Shown here: one piece after another, positions 11,246 to 44,672 of the stretch | How the letters are laid out: the number at the start of each line of letters is the position of its first letter | How positions within the stretch are numbered: position 1 is the first letter of the stretch | Assembly (NCBI GenBank): GCA_000961575.1 | Contig: LADP01000024.1 | Span: 62,001-126,000, forward strand | Length of the DNA: 64,000 nt | DNA from: Peptococcaceae bacterium BRH_c8a | GTDB taxonomy: Bacteria > Bacillota > Desulfotomaculia > Desulfotomaculales > Desulfallaceae | Direction: 5' to 3' | Notes under the pieces: generated by a model | The model's database searches: none | Told to the model about the DNA's origin: nothing | Seen by the model: the letters and a program-made list of their open reading frames with translations, nothing else | Position numbers and translations under genes: made by a program

Positions 11246-11319
11246 GGTGCCAGGTGTTGCAACACCTGGCACCAAAGCCTACCAACTTGCAACAAATTCA
11301 ACTTGCAACACCTGGCACC
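11246..11319. repeat. Family A (REP) pair downstream of ypeB
   Basis: A perfect 28-bp palindrome (11246-11273, arms GGTGCCAGGTGTTG) is followed by AAAGCCTACC and a second unit CAACTTGCAACAAATTC ... CACCTGGCACC ending at 11319. It begins 11 bases after the ypeB stop and may end its transcript. Confidence 0.85.
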
Positions 11320-11330
11320 TGGTGTATAAT
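11303..11330 (+). promoter_or_regulatory. Promoter whose -35 lies in a REP copy
   Basis: TTGCAA (11303-11308) inside the REP unit and a perfect TATAAT (11325-11330) just outside it are 16 bases apart. The symporter start is 29 bases downstream. Inferred from base match and position. Confidence 0.5.
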
Positions 11331-11358
11331 TGAAAGCAAGGTGACAGGAGATGATCCC

Positions 11359-12735
11359 TTGCTTTCAGCCGTACATTATCTAAGCTTTATATTTACCCTG
11401 ACTTTGGTTACGGCCGTGGGGGTTTTTTCTTTTTTTAAGGTTAAAAATGCAGATGATTTTTCAGTAGGGGGCAGACGTTTGCTGCCGGCCGGTGTGACCG
11501 GCGCCATTGTGGGTTCCTTTGCCGGTGGCACGGTCACCATTGGTACCGCACAAATGGCTTACTCGCTGGGCTTGGGAGCCATGTGGTTCACCATCGGTGC
11601 CGGCGTATCCTGTTTGCTACTGGCTTTGATTCTGGTTAGGCCGATGCGTGAAAAGGAAGTAGTTACTTTAAACGGGTTTCTAGTGGCCGAATACGGGCCG
11701 TCAATTCGTATGTGGGTGGCCCTTTTTACCGCTTCCGGTATGTTTGTTCAGACAGCGGTGCAAATTATGGCCGCGGTACCGGTTTTAAAGGGTATGCTGC
11801 CGTTATCCTCAGTAACGGCGGCTACCTTGACGGTGTTGTTAATGATCTTATTCGTTGCCGGCGGGGGCATCTGGGGCACCAGTATGGTGGGATTGGTTAA
11901 AGTGATTTTACTCTCGGTAACTCTCTTTGCCGGCGGCTACTACAGCTTTTCCCACTTTTACGGCCCAGGTGGCGTGTTACAAGCCCTACCCGCTGCGCAT
12001 CTACAAAACATGCTGCCCCGGGGTGCCCTGGTTGATCTGGGCGGAGCCTTCTCGGTCATTGTAGGGTTTGCCTCCACCCAGGCCTTTCTGCAGCCCCTAT
12101 TCGCCGCCCGGGATGTGCGATCCGCCCGGCTGGGCGCTGTTTACTCGGCGGCTTTAATCCCATTATACGGGGTGGCGGGGACTGCGGTAGGCCTTTTTAT
12201 GCGCGCCCGGCACCCGGCCATTGAACCTGCTTCAGCATTGCCGGGGTTTATCTTCGCGTATATGGATCCATGGTTGGCAGGTATGGCCGCTGCGACTCTG
12301 TTGGTTTCCCTGGTCTTAACCGCCGGTGCTCTTACCCTGGGGGTCAGCACCGTACTTACCAGGGATGTTTATTGCTGTTTTCGCCCCCACGCCGACGATG
12401 CTAAGTTGCTGCGCCTGAGCAGGGGTTTTATCCCCTTGGCCGGTCTGATGGTACTTTTACTGGCCTTAACTTCTTTGAACACGCTAATTCTGGATTGGAC
12501 CTACTTATCCAATGCCCTGCGGGGCACTGCGGTGTTTTTGCCGCTTTTAGGTGCTGTGCTCTTGCCCGGTCGTTTTAATGCCAAAGGAGTTTATTGGGCT
12601 GTAATTTTGGGTCCGCTGGCCACTCTTCTGTGGGCCGTATTTACGCCCCTGGATGTGCACCCGCTTTTCGTAGGACTGCCCGTAGCTCTGGTATGTATTG
12701 CAGTTGGCCGCAGGGTGCCAGGTGTTGCAAGTTGA
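11359..12735 (+). CDS. Sodium:solute symporter (SSS family)
   Basis: I choose TTG 11359, 8 bases after ACAGGAG (458 residues). The frame stays open back to 11254, but those 35 codons are translated REP sequence and precede the promoter. The product has about 13 hydrophobic segments and the SSS signature region (FSVGGRRLLPAGVTGAIVGS, GGTVTIGTAQMAYSLGLGAM). The substrate is unknown; a location next to an amino-acid catabolic module would fit an amino or organic acid. The last residues (VPGVAS) and the stop TGA are supplied by the REP copy at 12714, so the native C-terminus has been replaced. Confidence 0.85.
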   Translation: MLSAVHYLSFIFTLTLVTAVGVFSFFKVKNADDFSVGGRRLLPAGVTGAIVGSFAGGTVTIGTAQMAYSLGLGAMWFTIGAGVSCLLLALILVRPMREKEVVTLNGFLVAEYGPSIRMWVALFTASGMFVQTAVQIMAAVPVLKGMLPLSSVTAATLTVLLMILFVAGGGIWGTSMVGLVKVILLSVTLFAGGYYSFSHFYGPGGVLQALPAAHLQNMLPRGALVDLGGAFSVIVGFASTQAFLQPLFAARDVRSARLGAVYSAALIPLYGVAGTAVGLFMRARHPAIEPASALPGFIFAYMDPWLAGMAAATLLVSLVLTAGALTLGVSTVLTRDVYCCFRPHADDAKLLRLSRGFIPLAGLMVLLLALTSLNTLILDWTYLSNALRGTAVFLPLLGAVLLPGRFNAKGVYWAVILGPLATLLWAVFTPLDVHPLFVGLPVALVCIAVGRRVPGVAS

Positions 12736-12778
12736 AAGTTGCGTTATTTGCAGCTTTCGAATTGCAACACCTGGCACC
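12714..12778. repeat. Family A (REP) hairpin overlapping the symporter stop
   Basis: GGTGCCAGGTGTTGCAAGTTG and its complement at 12760-12778 form a long imperfect hairpin; the inner arms GAAAGTTGC / GCAGCTTTC pair too. The first 22 bases are coding and hold the stop. Confidence 0.85.
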
Positions 12779-16426: not shown

Positions 16427-16492
16427 GGTGCCAGGTGTTGCATGTTGAAAGTTGCGTTATTTGCAGCTTTCAACATGCAACACCTGGCACCA
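16427..16492. repeat. Family A (REP) hairpin after paaK
   Basis: GGTGCCAGGTGTTGCATGTTG and its exact complement at 16472-16492 flank a smaller GAAAGTTGC/GCAGCTTTC pair, very like the copy at 12714-12778. It may act as a terminator. Confidence 0.85.
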
Positions 16493-16529
16493 TAGCCTAC
16501 CGCTTGACTTTACTCACAAAGTGGTTTAC

Positions 16530-16574
16530 AACTTGCAACAAATTCAACTTGCAACACCTGGCACCAAAGCCTAC
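16530..16574. repeat. Family A (REP) unit before iorA
   Basis: CAACTTGCAACAAATTCAAC, CACCTGGCACC and AAAGCCTACC match the end of the copy at 11274-11319. The iorA ribosome site begins six bases later. Confidence 0.8.
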
Positions 16575-16594
16575 CAAAAACGGAGGGGAAAAAT

Positions 16595-18349
16595 TTGAAA
16601 GAACTGCTTTCCGGTAACGCCGCTATTGCCCGCGGCGCCATTGAAGCCGGTGTTACGCTGGCCTCCGGTTATCCGGGAACACCAAGTACCGAGATACTGG
16701 AAAATCTATCTCGCTGCAAGGATGTTTACAGCGAATGGGCACCCAACGAAAAGGTAGCCCTGGAAGTGGGCGTGGGTGCCGCCATGGCCGGGGCACGGAC
16801 ACTGGTCACTATGAAGCACGTGGGGGTTAACGTGGCTGCCGACCCGCTTTTTACTGCGGCCTACACCGGTGTAACCGGCGGTCTGGTGCTGATTTCCGCC
16901 GACGACCCGGGTATGCACAGCTCGCAAAACGAGCAGGACAACCGCCATTACGCGCGGTTTGCCAAAGTGGCCATGTTGGAACCGTCCGACAGCCAGGAAG
17001 CCAAGGATATGGTGGCCCTGGGTCTGGAAATTAGCGAAAACTTTGATATTCCCGTCATGTTGCGCATCACCACCCGGGTGGCCCATTCCCAGGGCATGGT
17101 GGAACTTAACGAACCCCTGCCCAGGGAAATAAAACCATACAGCAAGGACGTTAAAAAATACCTGATGGTACCCGCTTTCGGGCGGCTGCGCCGGCTTAGC
17201 CTGGAAGAAAGGCTGACCCGGCTTAAAGAGTACAGCGAAACCACCCGGGTAAACTTTATCGTGCCTGGGGATAACAAGGTGGGCATAATCACCAGCGGTA
17301 TCAGTTACCAGTACGTGCGGGAAGTGTTGCCCGGTGCGTCGGTGCTGAAGCTTGGCCTGACCAATCCCCTTCCTGTTCAACTAATTAAACAATTTGCCGA
17401 GCAGGTGCAAACCCTGTACGTGGTAGAGGAATTGGAACCTTTCTTGGAAGAACAAATTCGTATGCTGGGCATTAAGGTGACCGGTAAGGAGATGTTCCCG
17501 GCCACGGGTGAGTTTAGCCAGGGCTTGCTGCGGAGCAAGTTTGCCGAAGCCGGTCTACTGACGGCCCAGCCCCGGGAAGATTGGGCCACGGGACTGCCCC
17601 AGGCGCCGCCCCGCCCGCCGGTGTTGTGCCCGGGTTGCCCCCACCGCGGGGTATTTTTCACCTTACGCAGCATGAAACTCACCGTTACCGGTGACATCGG
17701 CTGCTACACCCTGGGCGGCCTGCCACCACTTGAGGGCATCGACTGCTGCGTATGCATGGGGGCCAGCATCAGCATGGCCCACGGTATTGACAAAGCAGTG
17801 CCCGGGTTAAAGGAAAAAACGGTAGCCGTTATTGGCGACTCCACTTTCCTGCACTCTGGAATCACTTCGCTGTTAAACGCGGTATACAACAGCAGCGATA
17901 TTACGGTGCTGATTTTGGATAATCGCACCACCGCTATGACCGGACACCAGGACCATCCCGCCACCGGGCGCACCCTAATGGGCGGCGAAGCCCCCGAGGT
18001 CGATCTAGAAGCACTATGCCGGGCCTTGGGCGTCAAACAGGTGGAGTTGGTGGATCCACTGGACATGGCCGCGGTAAAAGAAGCCGTTAATACCGGGCTG
18101 GCGGCAAAAGGCCCGTCGGTGATTATCGCCCGGCGTCCCTGTGTGCTGCTGAAGCGGGAATCCAAACCCGTGGTCACCGTGGATCAGGAGACTTGCAACG
18201 GCTGTAAGGTATGCCTTAAACTCAGCTGTCCGGCCATTTCGGTCAGCGATAAGAAATCATCTGTGGATAAAACTCTCTGTGTGGGCTGCAATCTGTGCGT
18301 ACAGGTATGCAAAACCGGAGCTATGAAAGGTGGTAACGCCGATGCTTAA
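16595..18349 (+). CDS. iorA: Indolepyruvate ferredoxin oxidoreductase, alpha subunit
   Basis: The 584-residue catalytic subunit oxidatively decarboxylates aryl-2-oxoacids (indolepyruvate, phenylpyruvate) to aryl-acetyl-CoA, reducing ferredoxin. It shows the N-terminal pyrimidine domain (SGYPGTPSTEILENL), the thiamine diphosphate site (GDIGCYTLG ... GDSTFLHSGITSL...NAVYN), and two C-terminal [4Fe-4S] motifs, CNGCKVCLKLSCP and CVGCNLCVQVC. The start is TTG 16595 after GGAGGGG. iorB overlaps its end by 8 bases. Confidence 0.95.
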   Translation: MKELLSGNAAIARGAIEAGVTLASGYPGTPSTEILENLSRCKDVYSEWAPNEKVALEVGVGAAMAGARTLVTMKHVGVNVAADPLFTAAYTGVTGGLVLISADDPGMHSSQNEQDNRHYARFAKVAMLEPSDSQEAKDMVALGLEISENFDIPVMLRITTRVAHSQGMVELNEPLPREIKPYSKDVKKYLMVPAFGRLRRLSLEERLTRLKEYSETTRVNFIVPGDNKVGIITSGISYQYVREVLPGASVLKLGLTNPLPVQLIKQFAEQVQTLYVVEELEPFLEEQIRMLGIKVTGKEMFPATGEFSQGLLRSKFAEAGLLTAQPREDWATGLPQAPPRPPVLCPGCPHRGVFFTLRSMKLTVTGDIGCYTLGGLPPLEGIDCCVCMGASISMAHGIDKAVPGLKEKTVAVIGDSTFLHSGITSLLNAVYNSSDITVLILDNRTTAMTGHQDHPATGRTLMGGEAPEVDLEALCRALGVKQVELVDPLDMAAVKEAVNTGLAAKGPSVIIARRPCVLLKRESKPVVTVDQETCNGCKVCLKLSCPAISVSDKKSSVDKTLCVGCNLCVQVCKTGAMKGGNADA

Positions 18350-18917
18350 ACCAATTAACGTTTTTATGGTAGGCGTGGGCGGCCAGGGAACCATCCTGGC
18401 CAGCAAGGTGCTGGCGGCTGTCGCCCTAAAAATGGGCTATGATATAAAGGTATCGGAAATTCACGGTATGGCCCAGCGGGGCGGCAGCGTGGTTACCCAG
18501 GTACGGTTGGGTGAAAAAGTGTATTCCCCGGTTATCTCTGAAGGCGAGGCCGATGTAATCCTAGCCTTCGAAAAGTTGGAAGCGTTGCGCTGGCTTTCCT
18601 ATCTCAAGCCTGGCGGCACCGTGATCATCAACAGTCAGCAAATCTCCCCTGTGCCCGTACTAGCAGGCGCGGCCGAGTATCCCGAAGATATTACCGGTAA
18701 AATCAAAGAGCGGGTGGCTGACTTACAGGTGCTGGACGCCCTGCAAATAGCGCTGGAATGCGGCAACGCCAAGGCCGCCAACGTAGTACTTTTAGGCGCC
18801 ATGGCCAAAAAACTCCCGGTAGACGAAAAAATCTGGCGCGACGCCCTGGCCGACACCGTCCCGCAGCGTCTATTAGAAGTAAACAATGCTGCCTTTACAG
18901 CCGGCTTTAGCGCCTAG
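18342..18917 (+). CDS. iorB: Indolepyruvate ferredoxin oxidoreductase, beta subunit
   Basis: The protein has 191 residues and the gamma-type 2-oxoacid oxidoreductase fold (GVGGQGTILASKVLAAVA ... SEIHGMAQRGGSVVTQVR). I choose ATG 18342, 8 bases after AAAGGTGG and overlapping the iorA stop. An in-frame GTG at 18330 sits within the ribosome site. It pairs with IorA to form the heterodimer. The REP transposon begins 4 bases after the stop, so the insertion spared the gene. Confidence 0.94.
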   Translation: MLKPINVFMVGVGGQGTILASKVLAAVALKMGYDIKVSEIHGMAQRGGSVVTQVRLGEKVYSPVISEGEADVILAFEKLEALRWLSYLKPGGTVIINSQQISPVPVLAGAAEYPEDITGKIKERVADLQVLDALQIALECGNAKAANVVLLGAMAKKLPVDEKIWRDALADTVPQRLLEVNNAAFTAGFSA

Positions 18918-18921
18918 CCCT

Positions 18922-19987
18922 GGTGCCAGGTGTTGCAAGTTAGTTTTGTTGCAAGTTGCTGGCAAATTTTACCAAACGTTGCTCAACCTGGGGAGGCACA
19001 TCTTTATTTGCCCATTTTTCCATCACCCTGGTTACCTGGGATCGGTTTTTATCCAAAAACACGGCGACATCACTGCGCTTGATGCCCGCCTCCCCAACGG
19101 CTATTCTAATTAACAGGCTTCTTGCCTCAGTTACGTGGCGCTGCTGCAAATTGCTAATCATTTCGGTTAATGTAACTCCGGTTTCTTTAATTACCCACTC
19201 GGTAATCTGATTAATTGTTAATGGTCTGGGAATTTGATTTTTCTTTGGTTTAATCCTGGGTTGCTCAATATGACTATTAAATGGCCTGAGGTGCCATTTT
19301 TCTTTTTGCTGCTTTTTGTTGAAATCCGGATTTTCAGCAGCCTTTTGCTGTTGATCAATTCCTTCCCGGGTGAAACTGATCAATTCATGTCTGGCCTTCG
19401 TAGTTTCGGGGCTGAAATTACTCAGTAAAAAAGAAGTGTTCAGGATCGTGTTTTCGTGACCGCAGTAGCCGGGAAAACTGCTCCAGGGATAGTGGTTTAC
19501 TTCGCTAACCAATCCCGCCCGAATAGGGTTTAAATGAATATACCGTGCTAGTACCAGCAGGTAACTGTCCGTGTCGCAGATTATTGATTTATATCGGTCT
19601 TGAAACAAATGCCCCACCCGTTCGTGTCGGTGGTTAAACCATTTCGCATAAGTACTGTGCATACGGTGCATTATTTCCCACAGGGGAGTCAGTCCGGTTT
19701 TAAGCAACCAATGCACGTGGTTGGGCATCAATACATAGGCGTAAACCTCAAAATCCATTTCCGCCTTATACTTATGCCATAAATCAAGGTACTTAAAGTA
19801 ATCATGGTTGTCCAAAAAAATATCCTGACGATTATTCCCGCGACATATTACATGATATACTGTATCTGGTGTTGGGTAATTACGGGAAGGACGACCCATA
19901 ATAAGCACCCCCAATTTGATTTTATATCCTAATTTTACATATTTATCCCTCAACTTGCAACAAAATTAACTTGCAACACCTGGCACC
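18922..19987. mobile_element. Complete REP-associated tyrosine transposase (RAYT) element
   Basis: Two 37-bp ends, 18922-18958 and the complement of 19951-19987, match at 36 of 37 bases. Each end has the two-part family A layout (GGTGCCAGGTGTTGCAAGTT, then TTTTGTTGCAAGTTG). Between them is one intact HUH transposase gene. The element lies between iorB and argS and is the probable source of the REP copies across the window. Confidence 0.88.
18940..19899 (-). CDS. REP-associated tyrosine transposase (Y1 HUH family) with DnaA-like C-terminal HTH
   Basis: The protein has 319 residues and starts at ATG 19899 on the minus strand, after GGGGGTG. The Y1 domain (about residues 1-150) has the HUH histidines His61 and His63 in PNHVHWLL and the probable nucleophile Tyr120 in LARYIHLNP; all catalytic residues are intact. 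Residues about 235-305 (LTINQITEWVIKETGV ... RSLLIRIAVGEAGIKRSDVA) resemble the helix-turn-helix of DnaA domain IV, a likely DNA-binding add-on. The last five codons and the stop are formed by the left element end. Such enzymes cut and join single-stranded REP hairpins. Confidence 0.93.
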   Translation of the reverse strand: MGRPSRNYPTPDTVYHVICRGNNRQDIFLDNHDYFKYLDLWHKYKAEMDFEVYAYVLMPNHVHWLLKTGLTPLWEIMHRMHSTYAKWFNHRHERVGHLFQDRYKSIICDTDSYLLVLARYIHLNPIRAGLVSEVNHYPWSSFPGYCGHENTILNTSFLLSNFSPETTKARHELISFTREGIDQQQKAAENPDFNKKQQKEKWHLRPFNSHIEQPRIKPKKNQIPRPLTINQITEWVIKETGVTLTEMISNLQQRHVTEARSLLIRIAVGEAGIKRSDVAVFLDKNRSQVTRVMEKWANKDVPPQVEQRLVKFASNLQQN

Positions 19988-28054: not shown

Positions 28055-28118
28055 GGAAGCAAGGGGACGGTTCTCCTGCTTCCTCATGAGGAAGCAGGAG
28101 AACCGTCCCCTTGCTTCC
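28055..28118. repeat. 64-bp perfect palindrome after fba
   Basis: The left arm 28055-28086 (GGAAGCAAGGGGACGG, then TTCTCCTGCTTCCTCA) and the right arm 28087-28118 are exact reverse complements, with the turn at CCTCA|TGAGG. The RNA would fold into a 30-bp hairpin. There is no T run, so it is more a repeat or mRNA end-protector than an intrinsic terminator. Confidence 0.9.
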
Positions 28119-28123
28119 AAACA

Positions 28124-28160
28124 CAACTTGCAACAAAATCAACTTGCAACACCTGGCACC
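28124..28160. repeat. Family A (REP) unit upstream of transaldolase
   Basis: This 37-bp copy equals the right end of the RAYT element except for one base in the middle (CAACAAAATC for CAACAAAATT). Confidence 0.88.
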
Positions 28161-43681: not shown

Positions 43682-44111
43682 TTATTTTATAGAAATAACC
43701 GGCCTGGTGGCCAAACGTTCCACTTGCCTGCGACGCAATGTGGGGGCCATTATCGTGCGGGACAACCGCATCCTTACTACTGGATATAACGGCGCTCCCT
43801 CCGGCCTGGCCCACTGTTTGGATATCGGCTGTATGCGCCAGCGCCAGGGTGTCCCTTCCGGGGAACGGCACGAACTGTGCCGCGGTCTGCACGCCGAGCA
43901 AAACGCCATCCTGCAGGCCGCGGTGCATGGTATTACCATTGCTGGAGGCACCTTTTACGTCACGCATCAACCCTGCGTGCTGTGCGCCAAAATGATGGCC
44001 AACGCCCGGATTAAAAGGGTGGTCTACCAGGGCGGTTACCCCGACCCGCTGGCCCTGGCCATGCTGGAAGAAGCCGGCATCGAGTTTATCCCCTTTGGTG
44101 CCAGGTGTTGA
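43659..44111 (+). CDS. dCMP deaminase (ComEB-like)
   Basis: The 150-residue zinc enzyme makes dUMP from dCMP. ATG 43659 lies in the glyA end, after AAGGTGGAG. The zinc motif is HAEQNAI with PCVLCAKMM, and the extra zinc-binding CxxxxxH region ([20 protein letters not shown]) is typical of dCMP deaminases. Its last four residues (GARC) and stop come from a family A repeat, so the native C-terminus has been altered. Confidence 0.92.
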
Positions 44112-44132
44112 AAGTTGATTTTGTTGCAAGAT
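44097..44132. repeat. Family A (REP) copy overlapping the dCMP deaminase stop
   Basis: GGTGCCAGGTGTTGAAAGTT followed by GATTTTGTTGCAAGAT. The first 15 bases are coding and end in TGA. Confidence 0.85.
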
Positions 44133-44137
44133 GCCTC

Positions 44138-44332
44138 ACAGTAGTCAGTAGTCAGTAATCAGAATGAGATAAACGCTATAACATACATTGGGAATTTCCT
44201 TGACCCAAAAGCCTGACCAATAATCAGAGATTTGAAAAATATGAGACCTAACGGTTTATGGCATTTAGAATTCTGACTCCTGAATTCTGATTACTGATTA
44301 CTGATTACTGAATTAAGGCCTGACCCCCTTTA
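44138..44332. repeat. Family D element (copy upstream of the MazG-like gene)
   Basis: Left end CAGTAGTCAGTAGTCAGTAA (44140-44160); right end CTGACTCCTGAATTCTGATT and further ACTGATTACTGA units to 44315, then GGCCTGACCCCC. The middle (TTCCTTGACCCAAAAGCC) also matches the element at 44698-44920. No gene is seen in the 237 bases. Confidence 0.65.
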
Positions 44333-44348: not shown

Positions 44349-44672
44349 GTGCAAAAAAAAATCGTGGCTTTGCCCAGACTGAATAACCTCACTCCCACCA
44401 TGGAATCTACCGCTCTTAAACTGATGGAAGAGGCCGGTGAACTGGCCCAGGCCATCGGTAAGTTGCGGGGCATGAGCGGAGAACGTTGCGAATTTAACGA
44501 GGGGGAAGCGCTGGATCGGATTACCAGGGAACTGCTGGACGTGGCCCAAACCGCCGTCTCCATGATGTTCGTGCTGGAAGAACACTACGGGGTGAATATT
44601 GAAAAAGCCCTGGATGAACACATCGAAAAGCTAATCCAAAAAGGTTATTTGGTGCCAGGTGTTGAAAGTTAA
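44349..44672 (+). CDS. MazG-like nucleotide pyrophosphohydrolase
   Basis: The protein has 107 residues and starts at GTG 44349. The all-alpha NTP pyrophosphatase core is visible: LMEEAGELAQAIGKL supplies the EExxE magnesium ligands and RELLDVAQTAVSMM the second acidic helix (ExxD). Such enzymes remove unwanted dNTPs; its position after dCMP deaminase suggests a role in nucleotide balance. The last six residues (VPGVES) and the stop are REP-derived, as in the symporter gene. Confidence 0.85.
   Translation: MQKKIVALPRLNNLTPTMESTALKLMEEAGELAQAIGKLRGMSGERCEFNEGEALDRITRELLDVAQTAVSMMFVLEEHYGVNIEKALDEHIEKLIQKGYLVPGVES

Follow-up and report, generated by a model that had tools for sequence, protein, structure and literature searches.

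RAYTs are described as single-copy, vertically inherited Y1 transposases that replicate their own REPINs (PMC8049555, available part), and the cleavage of canonical REP sequences is covered in the available part of PMC8266576. IS200/IS605 elements have no terminal inverted repeats (TIRs), as stated in the accessible text of PMC2817692, and use subterminal hairpins (PMC6006769, available part). TIRYTs and their TIRtrons, as far as the text of PMC3733652 describes them, combine a Y1 transposase, in most members with an HTH at the C-terminus, with long flanking TIRs, and their TIR families occur as singles, dimers and clusters. The accessible part of PMC6006769 states that the TIRYTs probably correspond to Y1 subclass 2.1; its authors saw no REP-like sequences close to genes of this subclass and did not settle what the DnaA-like domain does. 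The motif GGGGWSAS is found in "some TIRs" according to PMC3733652 and in the majority of them according to PMC6006769 (both in the parts available); it is common, not defining. The available part of PMC3686654 contains nothing on TIRYTs, and the literature that we searched, with few subscription papers and with figures excluded, yielded no paper on iterons in TIRYT ends.

The transposase unit and its closest described relatives

The window (the whole 64,000-nucleotide stretch of DNA analysed here, from the genome designated G000) contains a transposase unit of 1,066 bp (18922-19987; Table 1). Its 37-bp inverted ends align with a score of 71, compared with a maximum of 26 among 40 shuffles, and each end is laid out as GGTGCCAGG, TG, TTGCAAGTT, seven bases, TTGCAAGTT and G. 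The first-pass annotation had called the ends two-part, which is true in that two TTGCAAGTT boxes stand behind each tip. The ORF is intact and was matched by the Y1_Tnp profile (PF01797) with E 2.6e-15 (57.1 bits, cut-off 23), while all 35 aligned tip-type proteins, the unit's own among them, share H61, H63 and Y120 (319-aa numbering); family membership and an alignment to TnpAREP 4er8 lead us to infer that these are the catalytic residues. An intact transposase between matching ends, with its HUH and Tyr residues preserved, had been annotated from the beginning, and our analyses agree. On one side the unit is followed by iorB (18330-18917, indolepyruvate oxidoreductase beta) and on the other by argS (from 19996), both named by NCBIfam, and the flank at the gene's 5' side falls, as judged by eye, within the argS Shine-Dalgarno sequence. 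A search of the G000 genome found two Y1 genes in total, the unit's own being one of them.

Table 1. Positions in the window of the transposase unit's parts and of selected repeats
Feature	Position	Strand	Remarks
Y1 (HUH/Tyr) transposase ORF	18940..19953	-	337 aa with TTG as start codon, 319 aa with the internal ATG at 19899
TIR, gene's 5' side	19951..19987	-	tip GGTGCCAGG and two TTGCAAGTT boxes 16 bp apart; CTTT precedes
TIR, gene's 3' side	18922..18958	+	36/37 bases identical to the reverse complement of the opposite end
ORF part coding the DnaA domain IV-like C-terminal domain	19000..19215	-	residues about 229-300 (319-aa numbering), limits approximate
28-bp palindrome and one full unit	11246..11319	.	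one edge of a segment absent from G001
65-bp inverted dimer	12714..12778	.	other edge of the 11246 segment; G001 has a dimer where the flanks join
65-bp inverted dimer	16427..16491	.	A-to-T change common to the two arms; borders the iorAB segment absent from G001
Single full unit	16530..16565	-	repeat match
Single full unit	28125..28160	-	common to G000 and G001
TTGAAAGTT-type unit, a type found in other genera (possible relic)	44097..44116	+	
TTGAAAGTT-type unit (possible relic)	44651..44670	+	

Certain features place the unit with the TIRYTs, namely the Y1_Tnp domain with HUH and Tyr, the C-terminal HTH and the flanking TIRs. The terms REP and RAYT, under which it was first annotated, did not stand in the strict sense: GT[AG]G is absent from the hairpin foot of the flanking units, where the tip is GGTGCC, single units are not significantly folded, and the NCBIfam model REP_Tyr_transpos scored 77.9 bits, a near miss of its cut-off of 80. 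Beside the catalytic Tyr, where RAYTs have NP(L/V)(R/K)xG, the gene at this locus reads NPIRAG in G000 and G001, NPVRAG in G005 and G008, NPVKAG in G004 and NPVRSG in G009. The unit also differs from the TIRYTs of PMC3733652, as far as its text without the figures allows the comparison: its TIRs have the tip GGTGCCAG in place of GGGGWSAS (which the TIR of the second Y1 gene, GGGGTCAG, does fit) and contain two direct repeats, while the gene's single locus is fixed within the family and the dispersed copies match the TIR variant of the gene. Like the RAYT/TnpAREP systems described in the available parts of PMC2817692 and PMC8049555, it joins a single-locus, vertically inherited Y1 gene to non-autonomous repeats, many of them inverted pairs, that co-vary with the transposase, but the GT[AG]G foot and a significant single-unit hairpin are missing and a DnaA-like domain is added. 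Since the ends lack GT[AG]G and the single units lack a stable fold, TIRYT appears the better name than canonical RAYT; the closest described systems are the TIRYTs, the life style is RAYT-like, and the unit would therefore best be filed, by its features, as a TIRYT (subclass 2.1) with a REPIN-like population.

The HUH/Tyr catalytic core is also common to the unit and IS200/IS605 elements such as IS608, but the 37-bp TIRs and the lack of a significant single-end hairpin separate it from that class. The CTTT preferred beside one end of the G000 unit is reminiscent of the IS608 target rule, and IS200/IS605 proteins are not known to have an HTH domain. Rolling-circle plasmid initiators work with a "bind" site and a "nic" site. 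A likeness in working to these initiators and to DnaA with its 9-mer boxes (PMC7561715, available part) may be seen in boxes for one domain and a nick site for the HUH domain; however, the G000 boxes are unlike the DnaA box, and the likeness is read from sequence, not from replication.

The argS locus and its dispersed repeats

The first 20 bases of the unit end were found 13 times in the window at <=3 mismatches, both unit ends counted, with 0.02 expected, and 143 times in the 4.17-Mb genome, where the reversed pattern gave no match. The dispersal first noticed in the window was thus confirmed there and genome-wide, and the sites that had been named were matched, except 15012, which is only a diverged palindrome and no copy of the unit. 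Our sample of repeats, comprising the window and stretches around exact matches (844,582 bases, about a fifth of G000), contains 139 units at <=4 mismatches and 136 at <=3, of the 143 in the genome. Among the 139, 47 head-to-head pairs were called; 22 have a length of 65 bp, and one of 79 bp, which overlaps with another of 42 bp, is probably a false call. The clusters avoid genes, as 31 of 83 midpoints lie within an ORF of at least 150 aa on either strand, compared with 81% of bases. Moreover, the arms of the pairs co-vary: 780 arm positions in 39 pairs hold 12 left and 15 right changes, and the four changes at the same position in both arms are all identical, with 0.23 expected. Hairpin recognition of a single unit was considered and rejected, as three family units (z -1.65, -0.41 and -1.11 against shuffles) and one end of the second Y1 gene have no significant fold. 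The dimers are perfect or near-perfect palindromes, and the one that was folded does so significantly better than shuffles (z -13.4). With the 31 ends of the main 65-bp type excluded, the base before the tip is T in 73 of 91 ends and CTTT stands there in 30 of 91; in the main 65-bp type (21 copies, one truncated), CTTT precedes the tip in 18 copies and TTAC follows the other end in 12, or 13 if the copy in opposite orientation is counted.

Searching the proteins of 60 genomes of the order, G000 included, we obtained homologues in 45, and the initial remark that RAYTs are best known from proteobacteria may reflect sampling. By tblastn of the argS locus, the gene is present in G000, G001, G004, G005, G008 (where a stop takes away about 32 codons) and G009, and remnants lie there in G002, G006, G011 (weak, E 0.003), G012 and G013; at E<=0.05 the locus held no trace in G003 (a short contig), G007, G010, G014 and G015. 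In other families of the order (L137, L138, L139, L143 and L150), iorB and argS are adjacent without the gene. The six argS-locus genes, which come from several related genera, form one clade with a support of 100/100 in a tree of 70 proteins, built from homologues of the order only and with one short protein omitted. Because a single clade sits at argS and remnants are found at the same place, the gene seems to have been inherited by descent at a fixed position, with decay; single-copy, fixed and inherited in this way, it resembles a domesticated transposase. Recent mobility of the gene itself was rejected because of this synteny. The second Y1 gene of G000 (L040:994-1872; G000:C21, Y1 domain at about 82.3-82.7 kb), with GGGGTCAGGCCC-type TIRs, sits between uvrC and uvrA; 10 members of its clade, from 10 genomes of the family, are flanked by these two genes (one uvrA match being cut by a contig end), and the uvrC/uvrA interval is a second fixed Y1 locus.

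We compared copy numbers at <=2 mismatches in 16 family members and 44 genomes outside the family. Genomes with the gene have 133 (G000), 62 (G001), 19 (G004), 14 (G005), 52 (G008) and 8 (G009) copies; those with a remnant have 12 (G002), 0 (G006), 8 (G011), 0 (G012) and 68 (G013); the five family genomes without a trace of the gene have 0, 1, 0, 1 and 0. Outside the family, 42 of 44 genomes have none and two have one each. The copies follow the local ends. The TIR box reads TTGCAAGTT in G000 and G001, TTGAAAGGT in G004, and TTGAAAGTT or GGT in G005 and G008; all 22 dispersed copies in G004 are TTGAAAGGT like its own TIR, all 61 in G008 have A at the variable base (own TIRs TTGAAAGTT and GGT), and in G005 A was found in 10 of the 10 matches listed, from 14 in total. 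Six of the 139 G000 units also have A at this base (one of them at 4 mismatches) and may be relics. Copy number does not simply depend on the gene, since G013 has a remnant and many copies and G006 and G012 have remnants and no copies; G009 also fits poorly, having nine copies and a long ORF for which no TIR exceeded the threshold. The 120 TTGAAAG-type repeats of G013 (L132, L172), whose variable base is A among the matches listed, form an orphaned population in a genome whose argS-locus gene is only a remnant.

Copies of the 65-bp type with the AAAATACGC core number 21 in G000 and two in the congener G001, and G002 and G003 have none; within the sampled 0.84 Mb, 13 copies share the same 65 bp, and none of the three testable G000 sites is occupied in G001. 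Some of the repeats thus seem to have been amplified recently. Inverted two-unit pairs, 47 in all, of which the one that was folded forms a long hairpin, and a 21-copy core apparently amplified as a unit give the population its REPIN-like character. The system had been considered recently or currently active, which may hold for the amplification of repeats, and not for the transposase unit, which stayed at its argS locus. The positions of the copies in G001 are also divided, as most testable clusters lie at orthologous places and would be older, while the 21-copy dimer would be recent. By script, 20 of 27 testable G000 clusters have a counterpart in G001 (21 after one correction by eye) and 23 of 25 G001 clusters have one in G000 (24 after one correction); as most of the G001 stretches were selected for their repeats, this shared fraction is inflated. 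The cluster at window position 19975 was scored absent, yet is found in G001 with one tip change, and that at L197 9162 was scored absent, yet is found in G000 in a degenerate form. As many copies are common to both genomes, much of the family is not recent. The intergenic DNA of G000 and G001 is mostly too diverged for base-exact junctions of empty sites. At two sites empty in G001, a GGTGCC or GGCACC scrap remains; hence, loss in G001 fits these sites as well as gain in G000.

Repeats are also found at the edges of indels. In the collinear part of the window (0.4-30.8 kb), the comparison of G000 with G001 shows two indels that reach 1 kb or more (11320-12713 and 16447-18914), both edged by repeats on both sides. 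The former lies within a sodium:solute symporter ORF (PF00474, 70.6 bits), whose last codons are in the repeat, and the latter comprises iorA and iorB. We found iorA in the examined argS stretch of 11 of the 12 family members outside the genus (the contig of the twelfth, G015, ends before), and a 60% identical symporter near paaK in G010, the sole outgroup where one was seen. Therefore, loss in G001 is likely for iorAB and possible for the symporter. The best match to iorB elsewhere in G001 is only 47% identical, so the gene was not simply moved. The examined stretch of G002 also lacks iorA, and paaK comes there directly after the gene remnant. These edges suggest that the repeats may mediate gene loss and thereby shape gene content.

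Tips, direct repeats and the DnaA-like domain

TIRs over the threshold were obtained for 59 of 71 homologues of the order, the 12 others being outside the TIR counts. By pattern, the tip GG[GT]G[TC]C[AG]G is present in 35 TIRs and absent from 24, and GGGACG occurs in 19 of the 24 compared with two of the tip-type TIRs. An 8-base direct repeat (p<0.05 from 200 shuffles, either arm) was found in 19 of 35 tip-type and 4 of 24 other TIRs, while both arms hold hairpins of at least six pairs in 9 tip-type and 12 other TIRs. After regrouping by eye (L203 and L224 leave the tip group, L232 and L048 enter it, and the groups are again 35 and 24), direct repeats stand at 20 of 35 vs 3 of 24 (Fisher p 0.0009); the p-values for direct repeats and groups are optimistic, because they come from 200 shuffles with either arm allowed and from homologues that are related. 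Regrouped tip-type proteins are 275-417 aa long (median 293) and the others 252-299 aa (median 257). Longer proteins thus go with TIRs that have a GGKGYCAG-like tip and, in many cases, two direct repeats ("iterons") behind it, and the shorter ones mostly with GGGACG ends. Bac_DnaA_C (E<=0.05) was detected in 23 of the 35 tip-type proteins and had no match in 12; for the 24 other proteins it was absent among the best 25 of 27 families. A significant direct repeat is lacking in 16 of the 35 tip-type TIRs.

For 34 tip-type loci (one of the 35, without an anchored tip, was dropped; 26 remained after thinning), partial Mantel analyses showed that, in all five settings, similarity between tips goes with similarity between catalytic domains (r 0.36-0.37, p 0.001); it does not go with the HTH (r -0.10 to -0.17). 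Inner similarity showed no correlation with the Y1 domain (r -0.08 to 0.02, p 0.37-0.89) and a weak one with the HTH (r 0.09-0.19; p 0.018, 0.094, 0.006, 0.005 and, after thinning, 0.13). The latter is supported by three of five settings and is gone (p 0.13) once eight near-duplicates are removed; inner similarity may thus track the HTH, weakly and not robustly.

The DnaA-like HTH that was first annotated is weak in the G000 protein alone, where Bac_DnaA_C scored 14.9 bits (cut-off 31.5) and the C-terminal HTH matches (Bac_DnaA_C / HTH_23 / HTH_28 type) are all below their cut-offs, and is firm from the family profile and the model. The family profile matches DnaA (E 2.6e-6) and TnpAREP 4er8 (E 1.2e-5), and the modelled C-terminus superimposes on 1j1v (DnaA domain IV bound to its box) with a target-normalised TM of 0.83 and on 3pvp with 0.82 (E 5.9e-4). 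The underlying two-sequence AlphaFold model is poor overall, usable at about residues 229-320 and unreliable in the Y1 part (mean pLDDT 48.9); as modelled there, the C-terminus is a DnaA domain IV fold. In the 1j1v alignment, with residues numbered by our count, D433 and H439 of DnaA, which contact the box according to the available part of PMC7561715, align with N285 and R291 of the G000 protein. The two positions are N and R in G001, D and K in G004, G005 and G008, and E and K in G009, so that their change accompanies the A-to-C difference in the box, as one event only.

Origin of the repeats and reading of the ends

We consider it probable that a TIRYT-type Y1 transposase, inherited vertically and residing at one fixed locus, has the dispersed repeats as its non-autonomous substrates. 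The fixed locus, the matching TIR variants, the recent amplification of one inverted dimer and the DnaA domain IV fold are the parts that sequence and model comparisons support. The gene would stay put, persist by descent and decay in some lineages, and what moves would be the end sequence, the copies carrying their own genome's TIR variant. The catalytic domain would read and nick the GGTGCC tip beside a CTTT-like flank on single-stranded DNA, the C-terminal domain would bind the two TTGCAAGTT boxes, and inverted dimers, by analogy with the REPINs of canonical RAYTs, would be the efficiently copied form. Repeated insertions of a truly mobile, IS-like element into one attractive site upstream of argS could also account for TIR ends around an intact ORF, for CTTT before the unit and before 30 of 91 dispersed ends, and for a 5'-side flank within the argS Shine-Dalgarno sequence, but six locus genes in a single 100/100 clade among 70 homologues, remnants at the same site in five more genomes, only two Y1 genes in G000 and a second Y1 clade likewise fixed between uvrC and uvrA in 10 genomes make this very improbable. 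Somewhat less improbable, and still unlikely, is that the repeats are old host-selected sequences (terminators or nucleoid/topology sites) unrelated to the transposase's activity, of which the gene merely carries two. The many copies at orthologous places in G001, the palindromic dimers lying mostly outside genes and the 120 copies kept in G013 beside a dead gene would be expected then; against it, the copies carry the local TIR's base in the genomes checked, no more than one copy was found in each of the five family genomes that have neither gene nor remnant, and one dimer type grew to 21 near-identical copies in one species.

How the ends are read is a more tentative matter. Possibly, this Y1 branch recognises them by double-stranded iterons and not by a hairpin: a DnaA domain IV-derived domain may read two direct 7-10 bp boxes per TIR and the HUH domain the GGKGYCAG tip, with box and domain co-evolving, which would let each host lineage carry a private repeat population run by one domesticated gene. 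That the C-terminal domain does not read the TIR at all is a slightly weaker but serious possibility; it agrees with boxes that, by eye, are unlike the DnaA box TTWTNCACA given in the available part of PMC7561715 and with the fragile correlation between inner similarity and HTH, but TIRs contain direct repeats more often in the group with domain-bearing proteins, inner similarity has no partial correlation with Y1, and single TIR units form no significant hairpin. The division of labour between tip and iterons would be the novel part, and a swap-testable model of how the class finds its ends. Our findings add about 140 repeats, a locus fixed in the family and TIRs of a tip and two boxes where the available part of PMC6006769 reports no repeats and leaves the domain's role open, and the G000 system can be regarded as a Firmicutes-type counterpart to the REPIN-RAYT systems.

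Other repeats were also observed in G000. A longer repeat with the core AAACGAATACAACTTTCTGGTTGGGC has 15 matches at <=5 mismatches in the sampled DNA and stands directly before, or a few bases from, the tips of several unit kinds (L082, L086, L090, L093, L095, L098, L101, L104, L107 and others). Beside the 28125 unit, window positions 28063-28110 contain two GGGGACGGTTC motifs (0.06 expected), the hallmark of the order's other TIR type, to which neither of the two G000 Y1 genes belongs. Four GGGGTCAGGC tips, the TIR type of the second Y1 gene, lie at 44318, 50137, 51218 and 51281 of the window, with 0.24 expected.
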